NCBI GenBank assembly: GCA_020152595.1
Contig: JAIGNY010003789.1
Location: 305,001 to 369,000 of the forward strand
Length of the DNA stretch: 64,000 nucleotides
Direction: 5' to 3'
DNA from: Chiridota heheva
Taxonomy: Eukaryota > Echinodermata > Holothuroidea > Apodida > Chiridotidae
This document shows positions 3,772 to 52,500 of this stretch, in pieces. The position numbers and the translations under genes were made by a program. The notes beneath the pieces were generated by a model. The model was not told the origin of the DNA and did not search any database. It was given only the letters and a program-made list of their open reading frames with translations. Numbering within the stretch: the stretch's first letter is position 1; the number at the start of each line of letters is the position of its first letter.

Positions 3772-4926
3772 TTATACTTCGTAGATATTTGCTTTCCCAT
3801 TTTCAAAGCAAATGACCATCAGGTTCTCAAGGGTATCAATCCCAACAGGAGCACCTGTTTCTTCCGCGGTACCCCTTGCAATAACCCGCATAAGTGAAGA
3901 CATGAATTCGTACTGCACTATTTCCCAAGAAGGTACAACAGCTGCATCATTAATCAGATCATTAGATTGGTCAGCTGATTGATCACGTGTGACCCATAAA
4001 GCTATCCACCCGCTTAGCGAACATTTCACAATTTTGCATATGAGATTATGGTATTCTGAATTGGCAGCGGGAAGCAAATACGCCACCTGTTTGACTGTCG
4101 TACCGTCCCAGTCATGTGATACAACCGTAACTTGACTGTTGTCATGACAACAAAGAGCTGTCCTGTAGTACTTGGTACTGCACATCGAGACAGGCGGTCC
4201 AATGCCCCACTCGAGCTTAGAGATATCAAAGAAGCTATTAGCAGTAAAGTCTTTGTTGTAAATATTTATAATTGTTGAATTGTTCGTCGATACGAGAATC
4301 TTCTCATCATGTCTGACAGTAATAGCAGAAATATATGAATCTTTAGGAAATACAAGATCACCCTTTGATTCGATGTCCGCCAAGACGGCGACATTTTTTC
4401 GCTCAATATCTTGTAAACGAAGTTTGAATATTTCAGATCCAGTACCTACAATGGTCACACCTGGCAACAATGTGTTGCTTATGACGGTGATTGGACATCG
4501 TGTTTCCTTAGGCTGCAACACCTGTTCCCATCGCACATCGCTTACATCATCCGCACTAGTACAGCGTAATAAAATAGTGTCATTATCTTGACGTTTGTCT
4601 GCCACGAGCACTATCTCTTCCTTTGAGAGGCATACCACTGCAACAAGTTGGATCAGTGTATCAAGGTAACCGATTGATATGTCGTCTGATGTAAACTGTT
4701 GGTTAAAGTACAAGCCTAACGATTTCGAAAGGGTTTTCTTTTGTAAAACGCAAAGCTTTTTCTCCACATTGTTAATCATGTTCTCCATCCCACCTTCCAT
4801 TTCAGTTCCGGTAGTCACATTGACATCGTCCCGTTCAATGGCGGCAATGATTGATGAAGTGACTTCTTTAGCGCTGAGTACGGTCGCTTTAAGTACTTTT
4901 GCTGATTCGATAACAGCGTGAATGTC
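3772..4926 (-). CDS. RING/coiled-coil gene, terminal exon (coiled-coil end plus C-terminal propeller-like domain)
   Basis: Terminal coding exon, 385 codons including the TAA at 3772-3774. The 5' boundary is an acceptor (AG at 4927-4928 behind a CT-rich tract), entering in phase 0 at a GAC codon. The first 60 or so residues (DIHAVIESAKVLKATVLSAK onward) continue the amphipathic coiled coil of the exon at 10394-11100. The remaining 300 residues are beta-rich with recurring hydrophobic strands and Gly/Asp turns, such as LVSTNNSTIINIYN and WIALWVTRDQ. This is what is expected of an NHL/WD-like propeller in TRIM-type proteins, but I could not assign blades with confidence. There are no TM segments. 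In TRIM ligases this region binds the substrate. A GTG at 4816-4818 is not the start; the frame runs back to the acceptor. Confidence 0.8.
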   Translation of the reverse strand, partial: DIHAVIESAKVLKATVLSAKEVTSSIIAAIERDDVNVTTGTEMEGGMENMINNVEKKLCVLQKKTLSKSLGLYFNQQFTSDDISIGYLDTLIQLVAVVCLSKEEIVLVADKRQDNDTILLRCTSADDVSDVRWEQVLQPKETRCPITVISNTLLPGVTIVGTGSEIFKLRLQDIERKNVAVLADIESKGDLVFPKDSYISAITVRHDEKILVSTNNSTIINIYNKDFTANSFFDISKLEWGIGPPVSMCSTKYYRTALCCHDNSQVTVVSHDWDGTTVKQVAYLLPAANSEYHNLICKIVKCSLSGWIALWVTRDQSADQSNDLINDAAVVPSWEIVQYEFMSSLMRVIARGTAEETGAPVGIDTLENLMVICFENGKANIYEV

Positions 4927-10393: not shown

Positions 10394-11100
10394 CTTCTGT
10401 TTCTCCTCTGATATTTGTCCAACTTGATCTTTCATTGCTGTTTTCTGATTATCTATCTTTTTAGTAATTGTACTTAAAAAACTCTTTGCAGCCTCATCCA
10501 CTTGCTTTTTAACACATCTTCGTTTCTCACTAGTGACACATTCGCCTCGGCGGTTTGTTCCAGTAACTTCTTGATTTCCGAGACATGTTGGGTTAATTTC
10601 TCGAGTAATGAAACAAAGTGCACTTTCTTTTCTTGTAATATTTCTTGATGTTGATGAAAACCATTAATTTCTGTATCTGGATTATCCTGGGCTACATCAT
10701 CAGAATTCTTGCTAGAAATGGTGAGAGATCCGTTGTAATTTTGGGATGGTAAATATTTGCCGTCCACGTTGCACTGTAGAAACAATTGATGATCGTTATT
10801 GTTCTTATCATTCAAAGAGAGATGGTTGAAATCCTGGGATATATTTAGCGTTCTTAGTACTGATATCAAACAGTGGTTTCTTGCAAGATGTTCCATTTTA
10901 CCTGAAGGGGGTAATGCAAAATCATCGTTGCAGTCTGGGCAGCGGATAGGTTCATCCCCTGTTTCCTCGCTTACCGCTTCCAAACACGACAAACAGAACG
11001 TGTGTCCACAAGATAAGACTCTCGGATCACGGAAAATATTAACACAAAGCGAGCAAAGAAACTCTCGCTTCATGCCAGTGGATATCATAAAATCCGACAT
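10394..11100 (-). CDS. RING/coiled-coil gene, first exon (TRIM-like E3 ubiquitin ligase)
   Basis: ATG at 11098-11100 with A at -3. Residues 16-57 form a C3HC4 RING: CSLC, CGHTFCLSC and CPDC hold the zinc ligands. RING proteins of this kind recruit E2 enzymes for ubiquitin transfer in the cytosol or nucleus. Residues 58-145 are polar and Asn-rich and contain no B-box Cys/His pattern. From about residue 150 an amphipathic coiled coil starts (KKVHFVSLLEKLTQHVSEIK). The open frame stops at 10474, but after one missing A in the A-run at 10506-10510 the next frame continues as coiled coil (VDEAAKSFLSTITKKID) to a donor AAG|GTCAGT at 10394/10393. With that base the exon is 708 nt, exactly 236 codons, phase 0. 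The whole protein would be about 620 residues. Either an assembly indel or a recent inactivation explains the break. Confidence 0.85.
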
Positions 11101-21315: not shown

Positions 21316-21323
21316 TTTTATTT
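21316..21323 (-). promoter_or_regulatory. Candidate polyadenylation signal of the LRR-ZP gene
   Basis: AATAAA on the minus strand about 190 nt beyond the stop at 21513. The position is plausible, but AT-rich sequence makes chance matches common. Confidence 0.3.
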
Positions 21324-21512
21324 ATGCCCCCAATTTAAAAGAAAATGGCTGTTTGGCGGCGCCACTGTTTCCATCGCAAAATGTGAAAGAAATTGGAATA
21401 TACACCTTGTAACGTTGGGTGAATCTAACTACTGAGGAAGCAAAGAAAATACGGCATACATCGCCTTTTTATCATCAAAAGCAGTGTTCTACAATAGAAC
21501 AACGCTAAACTG

Positions 21513-21677
21513 CTAAATAGTAACTTCGATTGGTCCCCGACTAACTCTGTACGAATCATAGTCCACAACATTTTCCAGGTTTCTGATGACGTCATCATGT
21601 GACTGATACCCACAATGCCGTGTACATTCTTCCATGGCTGTCTCGTAGCAAACGCGAACGTCACAATGTATGTACAC
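21513..21677 (-). CDS. LRR-mucin-ZP gene, exon 5 (end of ZP domain, C-terminus)
   Basis: 55 codons including TAG at 21513-21515. Acceptor TTAACAG ends at 21678 and the exon enters in phase 0. It encodes VYIHCDVRVCYETAMEEC and then RHCGY, which is the closing ZP-C signature (hydrophobic-His-Cys-x-Val-x-Val-Cys, then Cys-x3-Cys). A short tail contains RVSRG, a possible basic cleavage site. No transmembrane segment or GPI-type hydrophobic tail follows, so this form would be secreted. A GTTAGT at 21545-21540 could act as an alternative donor, giving a longer C-terminus from an exon not identified. Confidence 0.85.
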   Translation of the reverse strand: MYIHCDVRVCYETAMEECTRHCGYQSHDDVIRNLENVVDYDSYRVSRGPIEVTI

Positions 21678-22016
21678 CTGTTAACGAAAAGGTCTCAGAT
21701 TTATGATTGTCTATCTTTTATCGGTTTATAATAGAGGGCAAATTACTTACATGAATGCAAAGAAACTTCTTTGATGTTTCTTACAATTCGAGAAATATCA
21801 AGTTTCAAAGACGTTGGAAAATAAAAATAGCGTACTATGAGAAGAGTTACGTCACATCTTCACTATGTTTGTGTACTTAAATGAAAATGTATCTAACAAT
21901 TTTGCATGGTAAAGAAATTTTTCAAAGTTTCTTTAGATGTTAAATGAGACTTAATCCCATATACTATTTAACTCTACTATTTTACTGTTTTCGATTTGGC
22001 TAATTTCGCTTCAAAC

Positions 22017-22550
22017 AGTCTGAGAGCAACCCGAAAACTGGGTACTTTGAAATACCCAAAAAATTGAATACTTTTATGTATTACGTCATAGAACGAGCTT
22101 ACACATTTGACTAGCCCACACTAAACATATGGGGTTTCTCATTTTCCGCTCCGGATTGTCCAAAATTTCATGGGATATCCTGAAGTTTTGGAGACGGATA
22201 GTAAATAAATATTCAAAACTTTTCGCCGCTGCTTTTTGAAATTCATTGTTCCCTTTTATAGAAAATCCATAAAACCGACTGCTCTAATCTGTTTTATTGA
22301 TTTTTGAATAAAGTGACGATTAATTTCAAAAAGCAGCGGCGAAAGGTTTTGAATATCTATTTACTATCCGTCTCCAAAATTTCAGGATATCCCATGAAAT
22401 TTTGGACAATCCGGAGCGGAAAATGAGAAACCTCATACATTTTGTGTGGGCTAGTCAAAAGTGTAGGCTCATGCGATGACGTAATACATAAAACTACCCA
22501 ATTTTAGGGATAATTCAAAGTACCCAGTTTTTCGGGCTGCTCCCGGACTA
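22017..22550. mobile_element. Near-perfect foldback element in intron 4 of the LRR-ZP gene
   Basis: Arms 22017-22252 and 22325-22550 are inverted copies sharing CGGATTGTCCAAAATTTCAT, GGATATCCTGAA and the AAAAGCAGCGGCGAAA stretch, with a loop of about 70 bp. No ORF. The whole unit would fold as a hairpin in the pre-mRNA of the ZP gene. Confidence 0.9.
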
Positions 22551-22718
22551 TCAAATCGAACATACATTGATTATCAGTTGTTTTTTTCTCCATTGTATTC
22601 GAAATTTCCCTCAAGGGGGAATATTCCCTTCCTTCCTTCACCAGCTAGCTAAGCTGTCTTTGATTATAATTTTAATTTCATATGAGCAGGAAGTAGAACA
22701 TAAATGACAAAACGTTAC

Positions 22719-22815
22719 CCGTCCATTACGCGAGAAGTTTCGGATATCTACCGCGAAGTTTTCTTCTTTTGGATCATCAGAATCAAAGAAGATTGCTCCA
22801 TTGTCAACCGGGCAC
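22719..22815 (-). CDS. LRR-mucin-ZP gene, exon 4 (middle of ZP-C)
   Basis: 97 nt, too short to stand out as an ORF. Acceptor TGATGCAG ends at 22816; donor CGG|GTAACG begins at 22718. The first base completes a Gly codon split across the junction (phase 2). Then follow CPVDNGAIFFDSDDP and an Asn/Phe/Arg-rich end, RNFSRNGR. It supplies the conserved ZP GCP motif and the hydrophobic stretch between it and the last four cysteines. Both junction phases agree with the neighbouring exons. Confidence 0.85.
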
Positions 22816-22905
22816 CTGCATCAGAAAAATACAATCAATCAATAAAGGATTGACTAAATGCTCAAATATTTCTGTCGCATAGAGGATCAAAAAGGAGCAT
22901 AAAGG

Positions 22906-23237
22906 TTTCCGGATAACTAATTTAAATAATGTCACATGGCCGAGATTCACGTGTCCATGATGGACCAATCGTATACTGGAGGAATCTTATTGACCAATAA
23001 AATACTGGAGGAAGCAGCAATACGCTCGCGTATTTTCTTCACGTATAACGCACGTATGATACGTGCTATTGAAAACATTTTTCATACGCTTGGTCCCATA
23101 CCGTGCGTGAATTGTGCAGACGGCCAAGATTCCTCCAGTATTTCATTGGTCAATATGATTCCTCCAGTATACGATTGGTCCATTATGGACACGTGAATCC
23201 CGGTCATGTGACATTGTTTAAATTATTTATCCGGAAA
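22906..23237. mobile_element. MITE with about 105-bp TIRs in intron 3 of the LRR-ZP gene
   Basis: Ends TTTCCGGATAA and TTATCCGGAAA. The inverted arms share ATTCACGTGTCCAT, GACCAATCGTATACTGGAGG and AATACTGGAGGA. The plus-strand ORF inside it is a by-product of the inverted repeat. Confidence 0.85.
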
Positions 23238-23239
23238 TT

Positions 23240-24860
23240 GCCGATTCAAATTTGAAAAGGTTTATAAAATAAAATGAAATGAAAACAGCAAAAATTCACT
23301 GTAATATCGGTATAAAGCTGCCGATTTAAAGCATTTTAACACTTACAAAATTATATACCTAATTAGCATAAGTTGCGCAATATGTTGTGACTTCAGAGTG
23401 TGTCAACGAGAATATTGTGAATGGGAGAAGTTGGCAATAGTGAACTGAAAATTGGTTATTATTATGACCTTGACCAAACAGTAGAAGTCAATTTGAGAAA
23501 CTGTTGATATTTGAAATTTGGAAACGAAATATAAAAAATCATATTAGAGAACTTTACCTGTATTCCCTTTAAATACATTATCATCACTTTTACACGTGCT
23601 GAAAATGTTTACAAACTTCCATTTGTTATAACTTTAAAAGTATATTAATCTTACTATTTAATGACTGTTATGCTCGAAATGTAACTTGCTCTTTCCTCTG
23701 GATTAAAAGTCTCTACCCGTCCAATACTTATCTAGGACAGTATGATGTCTTCTTTCGTATAAAGTTATGTGTAATAAGTTTGCTTGAAAATGACTGCTGT
23801 AAAAAGTCTACAGTAGAATATATTTGGGGGAAATTGTGCACGGTTATTCAACAATGGCAGCATTAGTTACGTTTATGTAATTAAAGATTAATGTTGACAG
23901 TTTGAAGCGGAGTGTCTAAATGTGTATTTAATGCACTTGGCAAAGAGCTTTGGCCCCAAGTTGAATGACCCGACTTTAAAAGAGTTATTCGCGAGTACAG
24001 AGTCCTTTGAACCGTGCAATAAATACTATATAAACACGATGCTAAAAACACTTATAGAATTTCCGTGTTAGATTGTTTAAAATGCATTTAAAACAACAAT
24101 AAATAATGAAAAACGGAAAACTTTACATATATTTTTTTCGCTTTGGTAAGAAATGCGCCTGTAATGAAATTACTCACACTCGTGCATTACGGGAATTTGA
24201 TGCACGGGTCATAACAATGCAAATACTACATATAAAAACCCTTCTTAGTAGCCAAAATTGTATCAAAATTAGTTAAAACACTTAACACTTTACAGCATTT
24301 TAAAATATCGGGTATCACTTTGCATATTTCATACAAATTTTGTGGCGTCTTACCTGGCCACTTCGTACTTTCTTTAGTAAATCCTTTGTTGTTGGTGGTG
24401 GCAGCACCAAACATTTTTCGAGTGTTTTCCACGCCCCCCAAGTAAAATAAAACTCAAACACTAAAACGCCTTTTTTTTTTTCAAAATTCTCAAACTAATC
24501 TGCTCAGACTGTCAAATTTTAAAACTTTTTTAATTAATTTAAAAATGGATACATTTCCACAGAACTTAAATGATAATTGATTTCCCTACTGTAATGACTG
24601 TAAGGATTGTAGATTATAGTTTGATCTAGGGTGACAGTTTTGTTTGTTTGTCAATAGCTTATAAAACGATATTTTGGATAGCTAGAGTTATCTCTGAACA
24701 AAAGTAAGATTTCGGTTATAAATCTCACCATTTTGTAAATATGTTTTCTCAAAATCTAGATTGAATATCATGGCTCAACGTCGGTAAATAAATGTGTATT
24801 ATTTTCCAAAGGAAACTGTTCAAATTCAACCCTTTCCCTTGTTTTAATTAAAACATATAA
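23240..24860. other. Rest of intron 3; no gene recognised
   Basis: AT-rich intron sequence. A minus ORF at 24226-24441 (contains FTKESTKWPGKTPQNLYEIC) looks protein-like, but I could not identify it or give it splice context. Confidence 0.4.
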
Positions 24861-24865
24861 TTTAC

Positions 24866-25271
24866 CCATTGTAGATGAAGTAATGCCCACTTCTACTGCT
24901 TTTGGGATTAAATGACAGAGATGATTTGCAGCTCGTGGTAAAGAGTGTGACGTCATCTGGCTTTGTATTAAGACGTGTGCTGAAATACTTCAAATGCCCT
25001 CCCGTGTTATTCCAAGAGTTGACCACGTTCACATTCGTTTCCTTTGATGACGCAGGGAAGAGTTCGTCGATAGTTATTCGGAAGTCTGAGCTGTACTCGT
25101 ATGTAGGAGGGTCTTCCATCCCTTCACCCGGATCTATGCATATATCCTCCGTAATTGGAAACACGCAACGCACGTCTTGAGTCACAGATAGCCGTCGCAA
25201 GCCATTTTGTGTATCCTCAGGACCCTCACATTTATGGTGTTAGATACCACAATTGCGGGTGAACCTTGCAC
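24866..25271 (-). CDS. LRR-mucin-ZP gene, exon 3 (ZP-N/ZP-C junction and first half of ZP-C)
   Basis: Acceptor TTTGCCAG ends at 25272; donor AATGG|GTAAAT at 24866/24865. It opens in phase 0 with IVVSNTINV, the strand that typically follows the CGT motif of ZP-N, then passes to a second frame containing LSVTQDVRCVFPITEDICI, which is the start of ZP-C, and TLFTTSCKSS and HYFIYNG, the sCwat-like and pre-GCP positions. The switch needs one extra base at the C-run 25223-25225 (G-run on the coding strand). With it the exon is 407 nt, phase 0 in and phase 2 out, matching exons 2 and 4 exactly. Confidence 0.85.
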
Positions 25272-25439
25272 CTGGCAAATATAATCGAAGAAAATCATTA
25301 AAATGACGACGATGAAATGATGAAATCTTAATATAATTCTTTAAACTACCTTCCTAAATTACACTCACTGAAAACTGTGACAAAGTATATTCCTGCTTGT
25401 AATCGACCAAAATGTGTCACAAAAAAACAAAAACATTTG

Positions 25440-27850
25440 AGCAGAATCAAGGTGGAAACAACACATTATATTAAGCAATGGTGCAAACAACACATTATAT
25501 TAAGCAATGGGGCAAACAACACATTATATTAAGCAATGGTGCAAACAACACATTATATTAAGCAATGGGGCAAACAACACATTATATTAGGCAATGGTGC
25601 AAACAACACATTATATTAAGCAATGGGGCAAACAACACATTATATTAAGCAATGGTAGAAACAACACATTCTATTAAGCAATGGGGCAAACAACACATTA
25701 TATTAAGCAATGGTGCAAACAACACATTCTATTAAGCAATGGTGCAAACAACACATTCTATTAAGCAATGGTGCAAACAACACATTCTATTAAGCAATGG
25801 TGCAAACAACACATTCTATTAAGCAATGGTGCAAACAACACATTCTATTAGGCAATGGGGCAAACAACACATTCTATTAAGCAATGGTGCAAACAACACA
25901 TTCTATTAAGCAATGGTGCAAACAACACATTATATTAAGCAATGGTGCAAACAACACATTCTATTAGGCAATGGTGCAAACAACACATTATATTAAGCAA
26001 TGAAGCAAACAACTCATTACATTAAGCAATGGTAGAAACAACACATTCTATTAAGCAATGGTGCAAACAACACATTCTATTAAGCAATGGGGCAAACAAC
26101 ACATTCTATTAAGCAATGGTGCAAACAACACATTATATTAAGCAATGGTGGAAACAACACATTCTATTAGGCAATGGGGCAAACAACACATTATATTAAG
26201 CAATGGTAGAAACAACACATTCTATTAAGCAATGGTGCAAACAACACATTATATTAAGCAATGGTGCAAACAACACATTCTATTAAGCAATGGTGCAAAC
26301 AACACATTCTATTAAGCAATGGGGCAAACAACACATTATATTAAGCAATGGGGCAAACAACACATTATATTAAGCAATGGTAGAAACAACACATTCTATT
26401 AAGCAATGGGGCAAACAACACATTATATTAAGCAATGGTGCAAACAACACATTATATTAAGCAATGGTGCAAACAACACATTCTATTAAGCAATGGTGCA
26501 AACAACACATTATATTAAGCAATGGGGCAAACAACACATTATATTAAGCAATGGTGCAAACAACACATTATATTAAGCAATGGGGCAAACAACACATTCT
26601 ATTAAGCAATGGGGCAAACAACACATTCTATTAAGCAATGGTGCAAACAACACATTCTATTAAGCAATGGTGCAAACAACACATTCTATTAGGCAATGGT
26701 GCAAACAACACATTCTATTAAGCAATGGTGGAAACAACACATTCTATTAGGCAATGGGGCAAACAACACATTCTATTAAGCAATGGTGCAAACAACACAT
26801 TATATTAAGCAATGGTGCAAACAAGACACTCTATTAAGCAATGGTGCAAACAACACATTCTATTAGGCAATGGGGCAAACAACACATTATATTAAGCAAT
26901 GGTGCAAACAACACATTATATTAAGCAATGGGGCAAACAACACATTATATTAAGCAATGGTGCAAACAAGACATTCTATTAGGCAATGGTGCAAACAACA
27001 CATTATATTAAGCAATGGGGCAAACAACACATTATATTAAGCAATGGTGCAAACAACACATTATATTAAGCAATGGTGCAAACAACACATTCTATTAGGC
27101 AATGGGGCAAACAACACATTATATTAAGCAATGGGGCAAACAACACATTATATTAAGCAATGGTGCAAACAACACATTATATTAAGCAATGGTGCAAACA
27201 ACACATTCTATTAGGCAATGGGGCAAACAACACATTATATTAAGCAATGGTGCAAACAACACATTCTATTAGGCAATGGGGCAAACAACACATTATATTA
27301 AGCAATGGTGCAAACAACACATTCTATTAGGCAATGGGGCAAACAACACATTATATTAAGCAATGGTGCAAACAACACATTCTATTAAGCAATGGGGCAA
27401 ACAAAACATTCTATTAAGCAATGGTGCAAACAACACATTATATTAAGCAATGGTGCAAACAAGACACTCTATTAAGCAATGGTGCAAACAACACATTATA
27501 TTAAGCAATGGTGGAAACAACACATTCTATTAAGCAATGGTGGAAACAACACATTCTATTAAGCAATGGTGCAAACAACACATTCTAGGGAGCAATGGTG
27601 CAAACAACACATTATATTAAGCAACGGTGCAAACAAGACACTCTATTAAGCAATGGTGCAAACAACACATTCTATTAAGCAATGGTGGAAACAACACATT
27701 CTATTAAGCAATGGTGGAAACAACACATTCTATTAAGCAATGGTGCAAACAACACATTTTATTAAGCAATGGTGCAAACAACACATTCTATTAGGCAATG
27801 GGGCAAACAACACATTATATTAGGCAATGGTGAAACAATACATTCCATTA
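25440..27850. repeat. 29-bp minisatellite, about 80 copies, in intron 2
   Basis: Unit contains AGCAATGGTGCAAACAACAC followed by ATTATATTA. Copies differ mainly at three two-state sites: GGTGC or GGGGC, TTATATTA or TTCTATTA, and AAGCAATGG or AGGCAATGG. A few copies carry GGTAGA, GGTGGA or AAGACACTC. The array fills most of the intron between exons 2 and 3. Confidence 0.98.
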
Positions 27851-28261
27851 GGCAATGGTGTAAACATAGAACATGATATATTCGATAATATTCAAATGAT
27901 ATTCATAATGAATTAAGAAAAGGCATTTGACAATGACTCAAAGAAATTCATCATCCTCGATACGTTATGTATCGGAAGCTTGAAAATAGGCAGATGCAGT
28001 GTGGGTAAATATTGCGCAATGTCTCCACACCAGGAGCGTATGCCATACATCTTAAGGTTCTTTCAAATTGCTTATCCTATTTTAGAATGCAGAATTAGAT
28101 CATACAACAAGTGAGCGAAACAGACTTCAAATTTTAGTTGAAATTTGATTTTAATTCTACCGGATTATTTGCATTGGCCTATACGAGGAGATTGTGGAAT
28201 TCCCGAGAAGTTATGCAAATGAGGCCGACAATATAAATGAAATGACAGCTTTTGCACTAAC

Positions 28262-28443
28262 CTTGGCTGTCGTACCGCATGCATCGTAAGGAGTATATAA
28301 AGTTACTCCACCGGCACCGTCCTTCACTTCCACGCAGGTCTCATCGTTAAGATGATGTTGGACATTTTGTACTGAGCAAAGTCTGTTAGCCAGGTTTATC
28401 TGCATTCCTCCCTGTGTACACTCAACTGGTTGAGCTGGAAGGA
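28262..28443 (-). CDS. LRR-mucin-ZP gene, exon 2 (ZP-N)
   Basis: 182 nt: acceptor ATATCAG ends at 28444, donor AAG|GTTAGT at 28262/28261. The first two bases complete a Val codon begun in exon 1 (phase 1), then 60 codons follow. Cysteines in PVECTQGGM, RLCSV, DETCVEV and YDACGTTAK give the four-cysteine ZP-N pattern, with the diagnostic CGT motif at its end. ZP domains polymerise into extracellular filaments in egg coats, tectorial membrane and epithelial matrices. A longer open frame to 28211 runs past the donor into the intron and is not coding. Confidence 0.88.
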
Positions 28444-28454
28444 CTGATATCACA

Positions 28455-28690
28455 GAAAAGAACTTAAAGGGTTAGTTCAGGGTCAAGCAAGTCCATCTTA
28501 TGTAAAAACGACTTCAAAAGAAACAAAATGGCGAAGAAAGCGTTTAAAATTTCTATTCCGTTAAGAAGATGTTCAAGTTTAAAGCTCTGCCTTATTTGTG
28601 TAGAAATGCCTGCAGTAAGTCTACTATGGAAAGCTGACGTCCTCATCCTCACATTCCTAGCAATTGGTTATGTATTTTAAAGAAAGCCAA
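28455..28690 (+). repeat. Partial foldback-family repeat R4 in intron 1
   Basis: Contains AGGGTTAGTTCAGGGTCAAG, AAACAAAATGGCGAAGAAAG and TAGAAATGCC..CAGTAAGTC, all shared with 18885-19310 and 19845-20600. It begins only about 10 bp upstream (on the gene strand) of the exon 2 acceptor. Confidence 0.65.
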
Positions 28691-29390
28691 TTTACATTTT
28701 TAGTGAGCATGCGAAGCATACTGCAAACCTATGTAATGGTCCACAGTTTTTCTGAGGATTTCTTAAAGATGTTAAAGTTTCCGGAGTTCCTGTTTTTTTA
28801 CAGATAACCTTATGGAAGGTTAGAATTTTTACAAAATGTTTAAGTTTTTCAGAGACACTTAAGACAGACTGAAGACTATAGCTTTCTTAAAAAGTCTACA
28901 AAACATTTGATATTTCCTTAGAAGATAACTGTAAAATGATATAATTTTCCAATAATCTTAAGAGATCAACAGACGTCTCTCTCGTGGCACTGCATATTTG
29001 AAATCCCTAAAATTCTTCAAAATATTAGTGCACCAACGGTTGTATCAGGCAGGATTATCAAACATCGCCTTTATTATTGTGTACATTTGCATAAAGTTGC
29101 TACAGTACGTGAACTGACCAGACTTTTTATTCTATTTAGTATGCTCAGTCAGGGAGTGTGATAGTATGTGACTGCAGATGGACATAGGAGGTATGCCATG
29201 TGGAACATGGATGGGGCCGTGCGATACATATAATACAATATATACCATATAGTATACACCAAGGGCTATATCAGGCATAATTATTTGACTCTGCTTTTTT
29301 TTTTCTTATTCAACAAGTCGTTTGCATATAAGTTATTATATGAAGTGACACTTTCATACATAGTATGCTCAATCAGGGACTGTGATAGCT
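28691..29390. other. Intron 1 sequence, nothing recognised
   Basis: Two similar short stretches near 29145 and 29370 (TATGCTCAGTCAGGGAGTG and TATGCTCAATCAGGGACTG) suggest a local duplication beside the minisatellite that follows. Nothing else was seen. Confidence 0.4.
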
Positions 29391-29394
29391 AGGA

Positions 29395-30250
29395 CAAGAC
29401 TTCTTATGGAGCCTATGGGATGTCATGTGGGACATGGGGTGGGATGCCATGTAGGATATATGGTGGAATGCCATGCGGGACATATGATGGAATGCCATGC
29501 GATGGGATGGGATGTCATGTGGGACATGGGATGGTATGGGATGTCATGTGGACATGAGGTGGGATGCCATGTGGGACATGGGGTGGGATTCCACGAGTAA
29601 CACAGAGTGTTACATAGGTTGGGATGTCATGTGTGACATAATGTAGAAGGCTATGTGAGACATAGGGTAGGAGGCCATGGGGACATGGGATGTGATGCTA
29701 TGTGGGACATAAAGTGGAATGTCATTGGGACATTGGAAGGGATACCATGTGGAATATATGGTGGGATACAATGTGGGACATAACGGTGGGCCATGGGGAC
29801 ATAGGAGAGATGTCATGTGGGACATCAGGTACATAGGGATGGAAGCCACTGATGCGGGCATACGGTGGGATGCCATGGGGGACATACTGTATGGTGGAAT
29901 GCCATGTGGGAGATATGGTGGAATGCCATGTTGGACAAGGCATGGGATGGGATGCCATGTGGGACATGGGGTGGGATGTCATTTGGCGCATGTGATAGGA
30001 TTCATGTGGGACATAGGGTGCGATGCCATGTGGGTAATATGATGGGATGCCATGCGGGACATATGGTGGAATGCCACATGAGACATGGGATGGGATGTCA
30101 TGTGGGACATGGGGTGGGATACCATCTGGGAGATATAGTGGAATGCCATGTGGGACATGGGATGGGATGGGATGTCATGTGGAACATGTGGTGGGATGCC
30201 ATGTGGAACATGGTATGCAATGTGGGACTTAATGTGAGATGCCATTTTCA
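29395..30250. repeat. Degenerate minisatellite of about 23-26 bp in intron 1
   Basis: Units resembling GGGATGCCATGTGGGACATG with variable length and many substitutions. Open frames on both strands (Met/Gly/Cys/His-rich) are repeat artefacts. Confidence 0.9.
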
Positions 30251-30322
30251 TAATTGGCCTTGTCAAATGATATCGTGTCAATTTGCATGGATATGCGAAC
30301 CATGACGGTATTTACTGTTCTA

Positions 30323-30665
30323 GTTTACTATTTAAATTATTTTTCCTCGAACTTTCTTCAGGTGGTATATTATAAATAACCTTACTAGATTCAGTTTTAC
30401 TTCTTTTCTGACATATTCCATTGTTTTTAAGGCACAAAATCGTAGGTGAAAATATGATAGAATACATCAAGACTTTGAGGAATCTAAAATTATGACATCA
30501 CAGCTAGTCTGATTTCAGTCGTTTCTACACAAATGATACCAAACTTTAAACTTAGATATCTCCTTAATGGAATAAGATTTTTAAATGCTTTCTTCACTAC
30601 TTTGTTTCTTTTGCATCCTCTTTTATATAAGATAGACTTGCTTGATCCTTGAATTAATGCTTTAA
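30323..30665. mobile_element. Foldback-family repeat R4 in intron 1
   Basis: Shares CTTTCTTCAGGTGGTA, ACAGCTAGTCTGATTTCAG and GCTTGATCCTTGAATTAATG with other copies. Further shared text follows, including GGTCGGCATGCTAACGTTG at about 30815-30840, inverted relative to 19870-19890. Confidence 0.6.
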
Positions 30666-31809
30666 CTAAATTTCATAATCATTATCGTTTTCATGAGAGA
30701 TGAAGCAAAAATGTTAAAGATACAGACAAATCTGACGAGTATAATTGGTTGTTGATACTGATCCAGATAACGCACTACATTTGGACCAATGTCATCATTC
30801 TAACTGTTTTGGGTCGGCATGCTAACGTTGAAATAATGTCGGGTCGACTCACTTTAACCAACGTTTGGTCTTGTTGTCATGCTAACCTTTGACTAACATT
30901 GACCCTACCAAAGCGTTTTATCTAGGGAACCCTCCCGGACCCGATTGAGACGGTGTTATCGATGGACTGCATCTCGCAGCTAGCCCGATTGTAGAATCAG
31001 TTGAGACGTCTTAATTTCGAGATAGAAAAATAAATCATATTTAATAGATCCTGGAAAATATCCCGGCTATAAAGGAAATATTGTTTGATTTTTTGAGCCG
31101 CAACATTACTCAGCTTTGGCGAGAAAAACGTCCATCGCCCTTTTGTGAGTAGTGTTCCAGCTATATGACAACACTAATTATTATCTTTTTGTCTGCATAG
31201 TTAAGTTCAAGCGTGTTTTATGACAATACATGATACAATAAACGAAAGAATTGATTCGTTACCAACTTTTTAAGTAACTTCGAGAAGCATCATTCTTACT
31301 AAGTTAGTTTCTTAATATAGTGTTTTAACATACTTGCACATATTGAGACAATTATCTCAGACTAATTCTCAGTGCATTAGGTCTATGTATGACAAGACGA
31401 AATAAGTTCCGCGTCTAACGATGATTTATTTTGTCGATGCTACACAGGATCATACATTTCAGTGAAATATGTTAATAGTATCACTTTGATATGAACATTA
31501 AGATGGGCCATCGTCACATGCTAAAACAACAAAATTGAATTCCCCAACCTGTGATATTTCCTGAATTTTGCTCGTTAGTAGATATATTTTGTTGTCCCTG
31601 TTGCATGCGCAACATTTTGGCATGACAAACTGTTGCAGAACAAGTTTTTACCTGTTAAGCTGCCAAGATTGTTCAAAATTTAAAACAATGAAGCATAATT
31701 GATGTAAATATGTACGATATATAACAATACATATTGCATTTGAAGCTTTTTATTGGTCTGTCATCACACTTTAGAACCGTAATTAACGGAAGTAGATTTA
31801 TACGCTTAC
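30666..31809. other. Start of intron 1 (gene-strand), nothing recognised
   Basis: AT-rich intron sequence between the exon 1 donor at 31809 and the R4 copy. No coding or regulatory motif is supported. Confidence 0.4.
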
Positions 31810-34800
31810 CTTTTGCCTTCGTGGTTTCTTCAATTGTGGGCTCTATTGTTGCAGGTTTAGTAGCAATGATAGCCAGAGGGGTGTTTTCTTCGTTTGTCAT
31901 TTCAGCTGCTGTTGGAAGCATTGTGCTTACTTCAATCACAGGATCAGTCACCTTTACAGTCACTTCTGCCATTGTCTGTTCGGCTAGCATTGTTGTAGCT
32001 ATAAAACACTTCTGCTCAGTCGTTTCCTCTTCTTCTGTTTGGGATGTTGTAGATTCTCCGGAGAGAGGGTTTGAACTTTCTTCAGTTGTTTCTTCTTCTT
32101 CTTCTGCTTTCGGCGCCAATGTTGTTACGTGGGGTAAGCTTTCTTCCTCCGTCGACTGTTTGTTATTCTGTTGTGGTTGTGTTGTTTCATCTTGAAAAGT
32201 TGACTCTGTAGTTTTTCTATCTCCATTCGAAGCGTTGTCTCAGGATGAGTTGCTTCCTTGTCCAATTGCGTGGTTATTTTCCGTGCGTGAGTTGTTTCAT
32301 CGACCACTTGCTTGGTTATTTTCGGTGCGTGAGTTGTTTCATCGACCACTTGCGTGGTTATTTTCCGTGCGTGAGTTGTTTCATCGACCACTTGCGTGGT
32401 TATTTTCCGTGCGTGAGTTGTTTCATCGACCACTTGCGTGGTTATTTTCGGTGCGTGAGTTGTTTCCTCGTCCAGTTGTGTAGTTGCTGCTGGATTTGGT
32501 GGAAATAGCGTTGCTGCTTCCGTCGTTTGTTCTTTTGTCTGCGACGGCAATGTTGTTACGGAGGGTAAGGTTTCTTCATTCGTCGATTGTTCCTTTGTCT
32601 GCTGTGGTTGCGTCGGTGATCCTGCAGTCGTTTGTTTCGCGGTATGAGGCTTCGTCTGAAAAATGGTAGGTGGTTGATGGGTTGTTTCCGCCTCCATTCT
32701 TCCGGTTGTTTTTGTATCAGAAGTTCGTTCTCTTGTTAGCATTTGTATAGTAGTCTCCTCGAAACTTTCACTACTGCTATCAGATTCATTACTGCTATCA
32801 GATTCATTACTGCTATCAGATTCATTACTGCTGTCAGATTCATTACTGCTGTCAGATTCATCACTATCACTGTCGTTACACGAGTTTTTGTCATTGTCAT
32901 TCGAGTCATCACTATCATTGTCTTCAGACGAATTTTTGTCACTCTTACTGCCATTGCTTCCACTGCCTTTGCTGCCTTTAGATGATTTCTTATCACTTTC
33001 GTCACTGTCACTAGACTTGCTACCATCGTCTCCATTGCTTCCACTGCCTTTGCTGCCTTTAGATGATTTCTTACCACTTTCGTCACTGTCACTAGACTTG
33101 CTACCATCGTCTTCATTGCTTCCGCTGCCTTTGCTGCATTTAGATGACTTTTTACCACTTTCGTCACTGTCACTAGACTTGCTACCATCGTCTTCATTGC
33201 TTCCGCTGCCTTTGCTGCCTTTAGATGACTTCTTACCACTTTCGTCACTGTCACTCGACTTGCTACCATCGTCTCCATTGCTTCCACTGCCTTTGCTGCC
33301 TTTAGATGACTTTTTACCACTTTCGTCACTGTCACTCGACTTGCTACCATCGTCTTCATTGCTTCCGCTGCCTTTGCTGCCTTTAGATGACTTCTTACCA
33401 CTTTCGTCACTGTCACTAGACTTGCTACCATCGTCGTTATTGCTTCCGCTGCCTTTGCTGCCTTTAGATGACTTCTTGCCACTTTCGTCACTGTCGCTAG
33501 ACTTGCTACCATCGTCTTCATTGCTTCCGCTGCCTTTGCTGCCTTTAGATGCCTTTAGATGACTTGCTTTACCACTTTCGTCACTGTCACTAGACTTGCT
33601 ACCATTGTCTTCATTGCTTCCGCTGCCTTTGCTGCCTTTAGATGACTTCTTACCACTTTCGTCACTGTCACTAGACTTGCTACCATCGTCGTTATTGCTT
33701 CCACTGCCTTTGCTGCCTTTCGATGACTTCTTACCACTTTCGTCACTGTCACTAGACTTGCTACCATTGTCTTCATTGCTTCCACTACCTTTGCTGCTTT
33801 TCGATGACTTTTACCACTTTTGGTACTTCCATTACTTTGACTTGTTATTTCTTCACTTTTGTTGTCATCAATGTTTTCAGTACAGGACATGTCACTTAAC
33901 GTCAGGGAAGATACTATCTTTCCCTGTGCACTATCTGGTGTGTTACAAATGACCTTATCAGATGTGAACGCTGCTAATGGATGAGATTTGATCCAGCGAA
34001 TTAATGTTGCCAATTGGCAGTTGCAGGTCCACAAATTTCCCGTAAGATGTAATTCAACCATGTCTATCAATCGGTCTAAGAACATGTCTGGTGTGAATTG
34101 TAGTTTATTTTCATCAAGTCTTAGAAACTGTAGTTTCTCTACGCCGCTAAGAGAATCCGCATACAGTCCTTTGGATTCGATGCGGTTATGGCTCAGGTCG
34201 AGTCTTAGTAGTTCGGGATTTGCATGGAACACGTTGCTTGGTATTGTGGTAATCAGGTTGTGTTGAAGATGTAGTACCTCAATAGTGGTAATTGCTGTAG
34301 AGCAGTCGGAATGTATACCAACCGAGCTGAACCAAGATATAGTGACTGCAGTGAAGATAAATTTATGAATGCTAACTCACCAATACTCTCAATAGGGTTG
34401 TTATTCAAGTGAAGCGATAACAACTGTCCGTTTTGCTGGAATACCCTATTTTTAATCTCCTGTAGCTTGTTGTGACCCAAATGCAAATCCTCTAGGAATG
34501 TTAGGGCAACAAACATTGAAGGCGATATATCTGTAAGTTTGTTATACTGTAAAAACAATTGAGTTATTTGAGAGGATTTACCAAACGCTGTCTCGTGAAT
34601 CGTTTTGATCTTGTTCAGTTTTAAATTAAGCTCTCTTAAATGTAGATTATTTCGAAAGGAGTTATCAGGAATTTCTTTTATCTTGTTGTGAACAAGCTTC
34701 AATGTCGTCAAAGCAGGAAGAAACTGAAGAGCCTCGACTGGGATATGTTCTAGACGATTGGATTCTAAAGTAAGAGATTGCAGCTCCACCAATCCACTGA

Positions 34801-35307
34801 ACGCTCTCTGATCAATCCGCGATATGTAGTTAAGAGACAAATCGAGAGATCGCAAATTGGGAGTATTCGTGAAAGACATTGTTTTCACGCGAACGATGTT
34901 ATTGCTTTTCGCACTTAGTGAATCTAGCTGGGTCAGTGGTCGAAGGCTCTCAGTTGGTACTTCGGATAGCTGGTTATCGTTAAGACTAAGGTGTTGTAAC
35001 TTGACCAAATTTTCAAATGCCTTGAATCAATGTTTCTGATAGCGTTGTGAGAGAGTATCAGGGATTCGAGATTGAGAAGATCCTTGAATGTTAGCTTCGG
35101 TAAGCTTCGGATGAGGTTGTGTGACAAATCAAGCTGAGTTGTGTCTACCGGGATATCGTCTGGTACCTCTTGAAGATTTTGACCTGAGCAATCTACTATT
35201 GTGTCCTTGCAGGTACATGACTTCGGGCAGGCAAAAGACCCTCCTGAAAACACAGACATTACTATCAAACAAAAAAGGGTTGGTTGGAACCGCTTTGATA
35301 GCTCCAT
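31810..35307 (-). CDS. LRR-mucin-ZP gene, exon 1 (signal peptide, LRR domain, Ser-rich repeats, Thr-rich tract)
   Basis: Start ATG at 35305-35307 (A at -3, G at +4) precedes a signal peptide, MELSKRFQPTLFCLIVMSV.. ending near SFA. LRRNT is CPKSCTCKDTIVDC. About sixteen LxxLxLxxN repeats follow, then LRRCT (WTCNC, CNTPD, DMSC) ending near residue 475. Next come about ten 27-residue repeats (KSSKGSKGSGSNEDDGSK type), an acidic Asp/Ser/Asn run (NESDSS repeats) and a Thr/Gln/Glu-rich tract with about six copies of a 14-residue unit containing VVDETTHARKITT. Donor AAAG|GTAAGC lies at 31810/31809. The frame changes four times, each needing one base: near 35022, 34281, 33810 and 32214, all in homopolymers. 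Adding four bases gives 3502 nt, phase 1, matching exon 2. LRR domains bind protein ligands; the Ser/Thr tracts would be glycosylated stalk. Confidence 0.85.
32240..32480 (-). repeat. 42-bp coding tandem repeat (14-residue Thr/His unit)
   Basis: About six near-identical 42-bp units inside exon 1, encoding ITTQVVDETTHARK-type repeats. Potential O-glycosylation sites are frequent. Plus-strand ORFs over it are shadows. Confidence 0.9.
32750..33830 (-). repeat. 81-bp coding tandem repeat (27-residue Ser/Gly/Lys/Asp unit) and acidic tail
   Basis: About ten units of 81 bp between roughly 32940 and 33830. In the frame that joins the LRR part to the Thr-rich part each reads K-S-S-K-G-S-K-G-S-G-S-N-E-D-D-G-S-K-S-S-D-S-D, then E-S-G-K. 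One unit near 33550 has a small in-frame duplication. A (Asn-Glu-Ser-Asp-Ser-Ser)n tail follows at 32755-32850. The Met/Val/Ala-rich frame and the plus-strand Leu/Ser-rich frame are also open, but do not connect to the flanking domains. Confidence 0.9.
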
Positions 35308-49552: not shown

Positions 49553-52500
49553 CGTAACCCCTGTAGTCAAAGGCCATAGTGGTGGGTGATCCACTCATAA
49601 CCCAGCGCTTGGTATCAAGAAATGACAAGGAAATTGTATTCATTCGCATGCTATATATAATGTGGTTTTCGCTTCTCAATAGATTCATACCATGACTAAA
49701 TTTCTTGCTGTCATACAGTGCTTCTTTGTACTGCTGATGTCGTTTATTTTTTCTCACAACATACTTTTTAACACCTTTTACTTTTCGGATCTCGCCTCCA
49801 TCTTCCTTCAGGATAGAATACATTTTGGGTTGAAGTCCTATATACTCGCTAATGGGTACTCCAGCACATTCGTCTTTCATTTTTCCAAGCACCTTTTTGT
49901 TCGTGGTGTTGTGGAGCGGGTGGTATGTCGGATAATCACTCGTGTCATAGAGGTGTGACTCAGAACTCATATCAGCATACACATCCTCGGTTTGGATTAC
50001 AAGTGGAAGACTATCCGTATAGAAAAGATTGCAGGGCTCCACATATTGCTCCTACAGGTTGTTGTAATAAAAGTCGTACATCAGATGTTTACTCAGGTCC
50101 AGGACACACATCCCAACGTAGACTGGTCGGTTAAGCATCAGCCGACGTTTGTGTATGTGTAGGGCGGCTAGATGATCATCAAATACCACATGCCTTGCAA
50201 AGCGGGGCTGGCGATCCACCGGCGAAGCTTGTCATCTTCAGAGGCTCTCACGAGTTTGATATCTACACGCTTACGCAGATTTTCTATAGTCTTATCAAAG
50301 ACGCTGTTGTTCCTAAGTTTGTAAAGGTCCTTCTTAAATCTGGTCTTGGCCTTCTTGCGGAGTTCTGTATTTATTCTGATGTAGGGTTCCATCCACTTGC
50401 TTTGATTGTACCGAATTGCACGATGTATTTTTGTCAGCTTCATACCTAGAGAGAGGTAGAGTTATAAATTTCGGTAGTGCACAACACAGCGCTTTTTATC
50501 ACAGAGATTGGGAACCAACTTTTCAACATCAGTTGACGAGTTTAGAAGCTCTTTCTGATAATCGACAGCCACTCCTTTGGAACCTTCATACGTTCCGGAA
50601 CAAGTGGGTATGCATTGTGGACGCCGTGTAGCTCTAGGGGATACTCAAGATCCACCTGTAACCCTTGTGTGCATCGGGTGAAAGCGTATCCAGCGGAGGC
50701 ACTTCATCCACCCATTCGAATCCACCCGTGGGTAGTGCTTGACTCATCGTCCAACCATACAGGTTATTTGCATCTAGGTAGATAATATGGTTGTTAGGCT
50801 TGGAATCGTCATAGCCTGAGACATAGGGGTTGTTGGCTTTAGCATAGCGCTTGGATGCCATGAAAATACCACCTATCATGCCTTTCTTGAAGAACAGGTG
50901 CATGTCATAGTCAGTTAACAGTTCCAATTCTACACCTGTATATTTCAAGAGTGCATCCCAAGATAACCCAGGGCTTGTATAATAGTGTGCTGCATCCTGA
51001 CAATACTGCCGCAAGCAAGTCTTCCGATATATTTTGAAGACATCAGCTAGTAGAAGCACATCAGTCCGCAGGTATAGGTCGTGATAATCTCCCATAGTAT
51101 CACATTCGAATGCCCCCAAAACCTCCTGCGCATGTTGATAATCCTCACTGGAGATATGTTCTTCCGTAAGCTTGCTATAGAAGGCATCTTGCGGAGCTAG
51201 GCACTCTCCAAAGCGTTCCCATAAATCCATATACTCATAGGGATACATCCCCTTACGCAATAACAATTGTCTCTTTTTATCATTTGGTTCATATTCAGTT
51301 GTGATACGGAAGTCAACAGAGTTGTTAGCCGCAACCAGCTTATCCAATGACGCAAGCAGGAATTGTGCGCTATCGATGAACCTCAACTGACCTAAGGAGA
51401 AGGATATATATTTCTCCATGTTGTTGGGGATGCAGGTTATCTTTCCTTCCACTTTGCTGATGGCTTGCATGGTCAAATGCGAGTCATAGCCCCGCAGGTT
51501 ATGAAACACAACTGGGATTGTGGTTGGTTTGGAGCTCAGGCGCAACTTCAGGCTGCAGGCATTGTGCGCAGCACCTCTGTACTTACCTGTAATATGGCAG
51601 TGGTCGCGGACAGAGTCACCATGTAAAGGTTTTTTACATATTTGACAATCCTGTGCTGTCTGGTGTGCGCGCCAATCCTTTCTGGTGATTATCATAGGTC
51701 GAGGGTTTGTCAGGACTGCTTTGATCTTAGTTTCTTTCTGCTGCAAAGCCTCAAGGAATTTCTCAGCTGCATTTTGCCCTCGATATACTACAGGAGGTTC
51801 TGTACGACCATCACACCTGACCACAACATACCCATAGCCCAGCACACGCTTCGTGCTGTTAATTTGTTTGGGTATTGGATTGTGCGGGGTTAGATCCAGG
51901 GCCATTTATCTTACAGGTGAGAGCCTCAAAGTCTGCGTAGATTACGTAGGGCGCTAGAAGCTGCTTGTGATGGTTTTGGAAGGGCAGCTTGTTTTCGCCT
52001 TTGTTCGGCATGTCAATACATACAGCTCTTTGACCAATTCCCATACAATCAGGTCTATGGGCCTCGAGCAGATCTTCCCTGGAATAGCCATGCAGACAAC
52101 TCTTACAGAATGCTTACGCTCTCGATGGGTGCTTTGATTAAAGAGCAGGCGGCTGAGGCTTTTGACCCACGTGTAGTGAAACTTACATGCCTTCTCAATG
52201 AATAGAAGGTTGATCCTGGGAATGTTTTTGTCTTGCTTGCTGAGTCTGTGAACGATCACCCCTTTATCCCAACCGAAGACGTTAATAGCCAGATTGTTTT
52301 GTTGTTCAACCTTCCCCGATCTGGGAGAGTGGAGCTGGAGCTTCTATTCCTCCAAAGTTTAAGCCGTTTTTTGAGGGATACTTGCTGCATCTTTCTGGAT
52401 GTATCTTGGCTGGAAACAGAGCAGATCGGAGAGCCCAGCGAAGACAGTTATCATCACGGGTTTTCACATTGATGATAGACTGTTTAGCTCAAAGTTCTTT

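Follow-up and report, generated by a model that had tools for sequence, protein, structure and literature searches.

An apparent LRR-ZP gene with a repeat stalk in the sea cucumber Chiridota heheva

A 64,000-nucleotide stretch of the Chiridota heheva genome (the window, to which all positions below refer) contains five minus-strand exons that together would encode an extracellular LRR head, a repeat stalk, a Thr-rich tract and a C-terminal ZP module. LRR and ZP blocks are normally found in separate surface-coat proteins. We think it fairly probable that this is one animal gene, and that its secreted product plays a role in an apical matrix. We advance more tentatively, as a possibility short of probable, that the locus is expressed as a single-chain fusion, with a ZP module joined through a phosphorylatable Ser/Asp repeat stalk to an Artichoke-like LRR head, hard-wiring the eLRRon and ZP parts of apical matrices.

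Gene model and the content of exon 1

The model runs from an ATG at 35307 to a stop at 21515-21513 on the minus strand, and the inferred protein has about 1450 residues (about 4.35 kb of coding sequence). Its elements are as follows.

31810..35307, minus strand: exon 1, with signal-like start, LRRNT, LRRs, LRRCT, Ser-rich repeats and Thr-rich tract; four frame changes inside
28444..31809, minus strand: intron 1, GTAAGC...TCAG, containing 24/48-bp minisatellites and interspersed repeats
28262..28443, minus strand: exon 2, encoding the beginning of ZP-N; entered in phase 1 and left in phase 0
25272..28261, minus strand: intron 2, containing a 29-bp satellite (83 copies, 25451-27866)
24866..25271, minus strand: exon 3, remainder of ZP-N, linker and beginning of ZP-C; one frame change near 25230
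22816..24865, minus strand: intron 3, GT-AG
22719..22815, minus strand: exon 4, ZP-C with the GCPVD motif
21678..22718, minus strand: intron 4, GT-AG
21513..21677, minus strand: exon 5, closing ZP-C cysteines, EHP-like GPIEV and stop
21317..21322, minus strand: AATAAA polyadenylation-type signal, about 190 bases past the stop

All four introns proposed in a preliminary description were recovered at these coordinates, with GT...AG borders and with local phases that agree (1/1, 0/0, 2/2, 0/0). When scored with matrices of general site frequencies, with no training on this species, the exon 1 donor (AAG/GTAAGC) ranks first among the 978 GTs of the minus strand between 20 and 36 kb. Two sites do poorly on the same matrices: 10% of 842 AGs reach the score of the weak to moderate exon 2 acceptor, and 6% of 978 GTs that of the weak donor of exon 3. 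A phase match between exons 1 and 2, taken by itself, has a chance of one in three. A tRNA search found no tRNA, and a sigma-70 promoter scan has no bearing on an animal gene.

Within exon 1 the following features can be distinguished.

35230..35307, minus strand: signal-peptide-like start MELSKRFQPTLFCLIVMSVFSGGSFA, hydrophobic, best 9-residue Kyte-Doolittle mean 2.99
35149..35232, minus strand: LRRNT cysteine cap (Pfam PF01462, E 2.3e-10)
34032..35139, minus strand: about 15-16 LRRs (counted by eye) of about 24 residues each, across three frames (PF13855, E 1.4e-47 and 5.5e-12)
33882..34031, minus strand: LRRCT-type cap, C-x-C ... C ... C, from cysteine spacing (PF01463, E 0.037, under cut-off)
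32952..33820, minus strand: 81-bp tandem repeats, 10.6 copies, 27-residue Ser/Asp/Lys/Gly-rich units (TRF)
32767..32865, minus strand: 18-bp tandem repeats, 5.5 copies, SDSSNE units (TRF)
31810..32766, minus strand: Thr/Glu/Pro-rich tract, with 42-bp repeats, 5.7 copies, at 32246-32485 (TRF)

An LRRNT and tandem LRRs behind a hydrophobic, signal-like start, which define an eLRR protein, are all found here by Pfam and by hydrophobicity. The earlier proposals of a secreted product and of this domain order are both supported. The closest solved LRR structure is IGFALS (7wrq, E 9.1e-70), with LRIG1 and LRRC15 also among the nearest. As a query, the LRR region retrieved 538 proteins at E <= 1e-10 out of 7982 scored, and many of the 120 listed are named artichoke, chaoptin or slit. 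Matches of the LRR piece to NCBIfam families lay far under the cut-offs and were set aside as generic LRR similarity to bacterial proteins.

The array periods of exon 1 (81, 42 and 18 bp) are each divisible by 3. The region had been called mucin-like, which suits the Thr-rich tract, probably O-glycosylated, but not the longer repeat tract. In the latter, a Ser-rich segment of 348 residues contains 131 Ser, 77 Asp plus Glu, 56 Lys and 23 S-x-E sites. A Ser-rich acidic composition with S-x-E sites is known from the acidic phosphoproteins of mineralised tissue, and we infer from the composition that the Ser/Asp/Lys repeat tract may be closer to a phosphorylated acidic stalk than to a mucin.

Reading frame and number of genes

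The reading frame is interrupted at five places in the assembly, four in exon 1 and one in exon 3. Along exon 1 the coding signal moves through minus-strand frames 0, 2 (from about 35,015), 1 (from about 34,280), 0 (from about 33,810) and 2 (from about 32,210), and in exon 3 it moves from frame 0 to frame 2 near 25,230, all these positions being visual estimates guided by the LRR pattern and by which stretches are open. Thus, the domain content given for exon 1 in the preliminary description holds, but its continuous open frame does not, the four changes having been missed, as was the one in exon 3. None of the three frames reads through the joined exons, and because the frame is broken five times, the full-length protein is a reconstruction, not a direct reading. 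The longest open stretch of exon 1 spans 561 codons, whereas 500 plain shuffles averaged 95 codons and never exceeded 176; such shuffles do not preserve the tandem arrays that this stretch includes. The LRR part alone (35307-33821) stays open for 257 codons, where 500 shuffles averaged 79 and reached at most 170.

Five frame changes within about 4.35 kb of coding sequence, along with two junctions that have weak sites (one acceptor, one donor), could indicate a decayed copy of an LRR-ZP gene that carries genuine breaks and yields no protein. We regard such a pseudogene as unlikely. All five changes go in one direction, with a single base missing or two extra, a uniformity not expected of random decay, and no other in-frame stop, such as a substitution would make, was seen in the coding pieces across about 1450 codons. 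Given these two observations, assembly indels are likelier than decay, and the assembly has most likely dropped a single base at each break in an allele that would itself be intact. The splice sites and the AATAAA are preserved, and runs of at least three equal bases occur in four of the five break intervals, although the intervals were picked by eye and AT-rich DNA has many such runs. The 27-residue copies also differ chiefly at third codon positions: in nine copies the variable columns number 4/3/10 at positions 1/2/3 (10 of 17 third-position, P ~0.03), and in eight, with the final boundary copy left out, 3/1/8 (8 of 12, P ~0.02). The 42-bp array has no codon-position pattern (2/3/1 in five copies).

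Another reading divides the locus into two adjoining genes, an LRR/Ser/Thr-rich gene that stops within exon 1 or beyond it, and a ZP gene starting from a first exon of its own, located in intron 1 or at some other place. The LRR and ZP domains are each independent of the other, exon 1 left unspliced meets a stop at about 31,676, about 44 codons further on, and the acceptor of exon 2 is of moderate strength. At a donor score of at least 0, the whole of intron 1 offers four phase-1 first-exon candidates, one of which (30467-30386) is mildly signal-like, with a hydrophobicity of 2.17 (2.99 in exon 1) and a donor score of 1.93. However, this candidate sits inside an interspersed repeat (81% match to 20369-20014), and raising the donor score to at least 2 leaves only two candidates, nested and non-hydrophobic. 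Exon 2 begins at the edge of ZP-N and has no in-frame ATG when extended upstream, and no donor in the region outscores the one that closes exon 1, whose phase fits exon 2. For these reasons we favour, on the sequence evidence, a single gene that would give one transcript, as first proposed, and consider two genes quite improbable.

The ZP module and the C-terminal end

Domain models (Pfam) recovered LRRNT, LRR, ZP-N and ZP-C in the order originally noted. ZP-N (PF23344) scores E 2.9e-6 and 27.9 bits on the joined piece, against a cut-off of 24.7, and E 4.6e-5 and 24.1 bits, just below that cut-off, on exon 2 with the start of exon 3. ZP-C (PF00100) scores E 7.8e-13 and 49.1 bits (cut-off 24.6), with cysteines at positions 1343, 1365, 1401, 1406, 1414 and 1418 of the joined protein. 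Type II ZP modules, the larger set, have ten cysteines, whereas this ZP segment has 12; by eye, ten of them can be matched to that set, leaving two extra. The closest solved ZP structure is uromodulin (6tql, E 2.6e-4). A match of exon 2 to PCMT (Pfam E 0.008, under cut-off) was taken as chance.

The sequence does not show the protein to be filament-forming. The F-X-F motif used in uromodulin polymerisation is absent from the ZP segment, where IRNF aligns with uromodulin MFRF. The segment has no furin-type R-X-[K/R]-R site, only a minimal R-X-X-R (RVSR) just ahead of GPIEVTI, and no membrane segment follows the module in the frame read. The protein as read stops right after GPIEVTI, whose GPIEV resembles the uromodulin EHP. 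A uromodulin construct ending after the EHP is secreted without polymerisation; as our protein, in the frame read, ends just after its EHP-like segment, filament formation is unproven here. Given the five other frame breaks, the C-terminal end as read may also be wrong: directly past GPIEV, the +1 frame turns hydrophobic (19-residue mean 1.63) and then reads KRRC. Most but not all ZP-module proteins have a furin-type site. Among invertebrate egg-coat ZP proteins, it is present in three of five from amphioxus and a membrane anchor in one of five, and six nemertean proteins have both a furin site and a membrane segment.

These features leave room for a variant that overlaps with the explanation we prefer, in which the protein is secreted but does not polymerise, the LRR head and acidic stalk act as a soluble or mineral-binding factor, with a ZP module that does no more than fold or pair. 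Consistent with this are the anchorless end after GPIEVTI, which resembles the cut uromodulin, the missing F-X-F, the likeness of the 348-residue segment to the acidic phosphoproteins of mineralised tissue, and the EGF-ZP shell matrix proteins named in a review table. The minimal RVSR immediately ahead of GPIEVTI and the possible misreading of the end, with its hydrophobic +1 frame and KRRC, speak against it, and we consider it rather unlikely.

Comparison with known systems and proposed role

The protein shares a C-terminal ZP-N and ZP-C, the GCP motif and the closing cysteine cluster with uromodulin, tectorins, egg-coat ZP proteins and EGF-ZP shell matrix proteins, and also resembles uromodulin and other ZP-module proteins in having an EHP-like segment (GPI) and an N-terminal head with a stalk. 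It differs from uromodulin-type proteins in lacking, as read, R-X-[K/R]-R, F-X-F and an anchor, and in its head. Heads described for ZP-module proteins in the texts consulted are EGF, D8C, CUB, VWD, vWFA, LDLa, PAN and trefoil, whereas here the head is made of LRRs. The ZP egg-coat proteins of amphioxus and nemerteans are likewise invertebrate and secreted, with extra N-terminal domains; these are LDLa and vWFA in amphioxus and EGF-like, CUB and VWD in nemerteans, not LRRs.

On the LRR side, a secretory start, an LRRNT and tandem 24-residue LRRs are common to this protein and to Artichoke, chaoptin and other eLRRon proteins. The latter have no other recognisable domain, whereas here, if the gene is single, a ZP module comes after the LRRs. 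The nearest solved relatives are IGFALS, LRIG1 and LRRC15, with Slit among the matches listed; we know of no ZP module in these or Slit-type families.

The preliminary description knew of no standard family with this domain order, and our homologue and literature searches, limited in reach, are consistent with that. PF00100 was present in none of the 120 LRR homologues listed (of 538). The ZP region within the full-length query had no match at E <= 0.01 among 2912 candidates, and the ZP module alone had none at E <= 1 among 94. The database includes animals, while the search finds only proteins that share 5-residue words with the query and fall within a length window, and its queries contain joins made by hand, so that the absence of a two-domain homologue is informative but weak. 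An IMG/VR scan with the ZP piece gave six stretches that fitted a pattern, none of them confirmed, and one of the six patterns crossed a by-hand join. Literature searches aimed at an LRR and a ZP domain in one chain did not find this architecture.

LRR-only and ZP proteins do share apical matrices in worms and flies, and direct contact between them is not described in the portions of this literature available. The worm embryonic sheath combines LET-4 and SYM-1 (LRR) with NOAH-1/2 and FBN-1 (ZP), the fly dendritic cap combines Artichoke with NompA, and a table of matrix components includes both classes. Loss of worm LET-4 left the secretion and luminal retention of the ZP protein LET-653 undisturbed, and let-4 was taken to act later, which disfavours a tight LRR-ZP partnership in that animal.

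By analogy, we suggest a likely role as an apical matrix or egg-coat component. The ZP module, alone or alongside other ZP proteins, would anchor the protein in an apical extracellular matrix such as an egg coat, a cuticle-like layer, or a mucous or sensory matrix. From there the long Ser/Asp/Lys-rich stalk and the Thr-rich tract would hold outward a head of the Artichoke/IGFALS kind, which may bind matrix or cell-surface partners. In ZP proteins the N-terminal region sticks out of the filament.

With an LRR head and a ZP module in one chain, the protein would therefore unite two functions that are kept apart in worms and flies. Much of the function of ZP proteins is set by what precedes the module N-terminally, and an LRR head would give them a versatile binding scaffold. 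If real, the fusion points to a direct physical partnership of the eLRRon and ZP families where they are separate proteins, and would back the testable hypothesis that LRR-only and ZP proteins touch each other.

Exon structure and reading frames

Features of the candidate LRR-ZP gene and its surroundings (window coordinates)
21513..35307, minus strand: candidate LRR-ZP gene, five exons and four introns
31810..35307, minus strand: exon 1, with a signal-like start, LRRNT, LRRs, LRRCT-type cap, Ser-rich repeats and Thr-rich tract
28444..31809: intron 1
29416-30228: degenerate 24/48-bp minisatellites in intron 1
30300-30700 and 28464-28685: intron 1 members of an interspersed repeat family, one of which comes within about 20 bases of exon 2; other members, 72-81% alike, occur around 18.8-19.3 kb, around 20.0-20.6 kb and around 40.9 kb
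25272..28261: intron 2
25451-27866: 29-bp satellite (83 copies, 92% matches) making up most of intron 2
50634-51905, minus strand: ORF matching DNA polymerase B (PF03175, E 6.9e-7) and, under the cut-off, recombination endonuclease VII (PF02945, E 2.3e-4); presumably a virus-like or Polinton-like mobile element
10474-11100, minus strand: RING-finger ORF (PF13445, E 1.8e-9) that may be a TRIM-type gene
3772-4818, minus strand: 348-residue ORF with no Pfam match at E <= 0.01

The four introns of the preliminary description were borne out, all with GT-AG borders and matching phases. Of the domains it named, Pfam recognises LRRNT (E 2.3e-10), LRR (LRR_8, E 1.4e-47 for the middle piece, 5.5e-12 for the third), ZP-C (E 7.8e-13) and ZP-N (E 2.9e-6 on the joined piece, put together across the frame change in exon 3 at a place judged by eye), but LRRCT falls under the cut-off (E 0.037). 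In the joined protein, residues 433, 435, 459 and 480 are LRRCT-type cysteines (C-x-C, C, C). Exon 1 contains tandem arrays with units of 81, 42 and 18 bp.

The agreement of phases claimed for every junction holds at each junction taken by itself, but the assembled gene does not encode the protein, because the frame changes within exons 1 and 3 and the joined exons have no read-through in any frame. In three-frame translation, the coding signal of exon 1 runs through frames 0, 2, 1, 0 and 2, and that of exon 3 passes from frame 0 to 2. Every change corresponds to one base lost (or two gained), and inspection of the coding pieces revealed no other stops. Runs of at least three equal bases occur in four of the five break intervals, which is weak evidence, as such runs are common in AT-rich DNA. 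The breaks are probably deletions in the assembly; decay of the gene into a pseudogene is a possible alternative.

Exon 1 is open for at most 561 codons in a row, although this stretch takes in the tandem arrays (mean 95 and maximum 176 in 500 plain shuffles), and the LRR part alone is open for 257 codons (mean 79 and maximum 170 in 500 shuffles). Ten copies of the 27-residue repeat were located by their GSKSSDSDES start, one of them with a four-residue in-frame insertion (33510-33600, minus strand). Comparison of nine copies, with the last included and the one with the insertion left out, gave 17 variable columns, split 4/3/10 over codon positions (P about 0.03); without the last, boundary copy, the remaining eight gave 12, split 3/1/8 (P about 0.02). 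The five 42-bp copies (2/3/1) give no support for coding.

One gene or two

Should the ZP exons form a separate gene, they would need a start of their own. Exon 2 begins at the ZP-N edge, and no methionine is present upstream of it up to the previous stop (28471). Minus-strand splice sites between 20 and 36 kb (978 GTs, 842 AGs) were scored with general splice-site frequencies. The exon 1 donor has the top score of all 978 GTs by these frequencies; 1.5%, 5.9% and 2.8% of GTs score equal to or better than the donors of exons 2, 3 and 4, and 10%, 3.6%, 0.8% and 0.5% of AGs do so for the acceptors of exons 2 to 5. Within intron 1, two nested ATG exons ending in phase 1 have a donor score of at least 2, neither of them hydrophobic, and four such exons appear at a threshold of 0. 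The candidate at 30467-30386 (donor 1.93, hydrophobicity 2.17 versus 2.99 for exon 1) might be taken for a weak signal peptide; it sits in an interspersed repeat with other copies in the window (e.g., 20369-20014 at 81%). Some 190 bases past the stop there is an AATAAA, at 21322. Because of the start-less exon 2, the splice-site scores and the AATAAA, and with the intron 1 candidates in view, we favour on sequence grounds a single gene joining the LRR and ZP exons.

The ZP tail and polymerisation

The C-terminus as read is RVSR-GPIEVTI followed by a stop, 32 residues past the last cysteine. The ZP segment contains neither an R-X-[K/R]-R site nor F-X-F, and no stretch reaches membrane-span hydrophobicity (best 19-residue mean 0.81). 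Its 12 cysteines are two above the ten of the type II module as described for amphioxus (PMC3543715). In the +1 frame right after GPIEV, a hydrophobic stretch (19-residue mean 1.63) is followed by KRRC (21400-21530, minus strand), and an anchor encoded in this frame may belong to the true C-terminus. A sixth break restoring the usual ZP tail would be opposite in sign to the other five. By analogy, a missing furin site or anchor would not be fatal, since of the five ZP proteins in the amphioxus egg coat, three contain the site and one a membrane segment (PMC3543715).

In uromodulin, cleavage frees the external hydrophobic patch (EHP) and the subunits then join; a version truncated behind the EHP was secreted without polymerisation (PMC7737619). 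Given a predicted tail without R-X-[K/R]-R, F-X-F or a membrane span, and the 12 cysteines, the LRR-ZP protein may or may not form filaments.

Relatives and a possible apical matrix

Uromodulin (6tql) is the best solved relative of the ZP segment (whole-sequence E 2.6e-4), in a search that gave four sequences at E <= 10. The best solved LRR relatives include IGFALS, LRIG1, LGR4 and LRRC15 (best 60 of 346 at E <= 0.001). Against 5.8 billion proteins the LRR region has 538 matches at E <= 1e-10; among the 120 listed, many bear the names artichoke, chaoptin or slit, and none lists PF00100. The ZP region had no match among the same proteins. No title or abstract start among the open-access papers listed for LRR with ZP reports the two in one protein. 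'Leucine' and 'LRR' are absent from a 2026 ZP review (PMC13361971) and from the amphioxus (PMC3543715) and nemertean (PMC11673550) egg-coat papers, as are 'zona pellucida' and 'ZP domain' from an extracellular LRR survey (PMC2235866). It is quite possible that the architecture has already been sighted in some database.

The 348-residue Ser-rich segment contains 131 Ser, 54 Asp, 23 Glu, 56 Lys and 23 S-x-E sites, the sites of the secretory kinase Fam20C. Its predicted composition suits secretory kinases and is reminiscent of acidic proteins in the matrix of mineralised tissue. Next comes a Thr-rich tract (77 Thr in the joined piece), which would suit O-glycosylation.

If the exons are one gene, the ZP module is C-terminal, behind an LRR and repeat-rich head. 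ZP proteins are described as polymerising via ZP-N and ZP-C with the N-terminal region protruding (PMC11673550). LRR and ZP classes both appear in a review table of matrix parts (PMC7886070), and the fly dendritic cap contains both Artichoke and NompA (PMC4970718). The embryonic sheath of the worm likewise has LRR proteins (LET-4, SYM-1) and ZP proteins (NOAH-1/2, FBN-1). In the worm, loss of LET-4 left secretion and retention of the ZP protein LET-653 undisturbed (PMC4970718), which by analogy would speak against a tight LRR/ZP partnership.

Broken frames, and a search that listed no homologue with both domains, weaken the case for the LRR-ZP architecture, but it is clean and testable, with a good functional hypothesis. 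The fusion would build an apical matrix in which LRR heads would be displayed by the ZP core on a stalk that is long, charged and rich in Ser and Thr.
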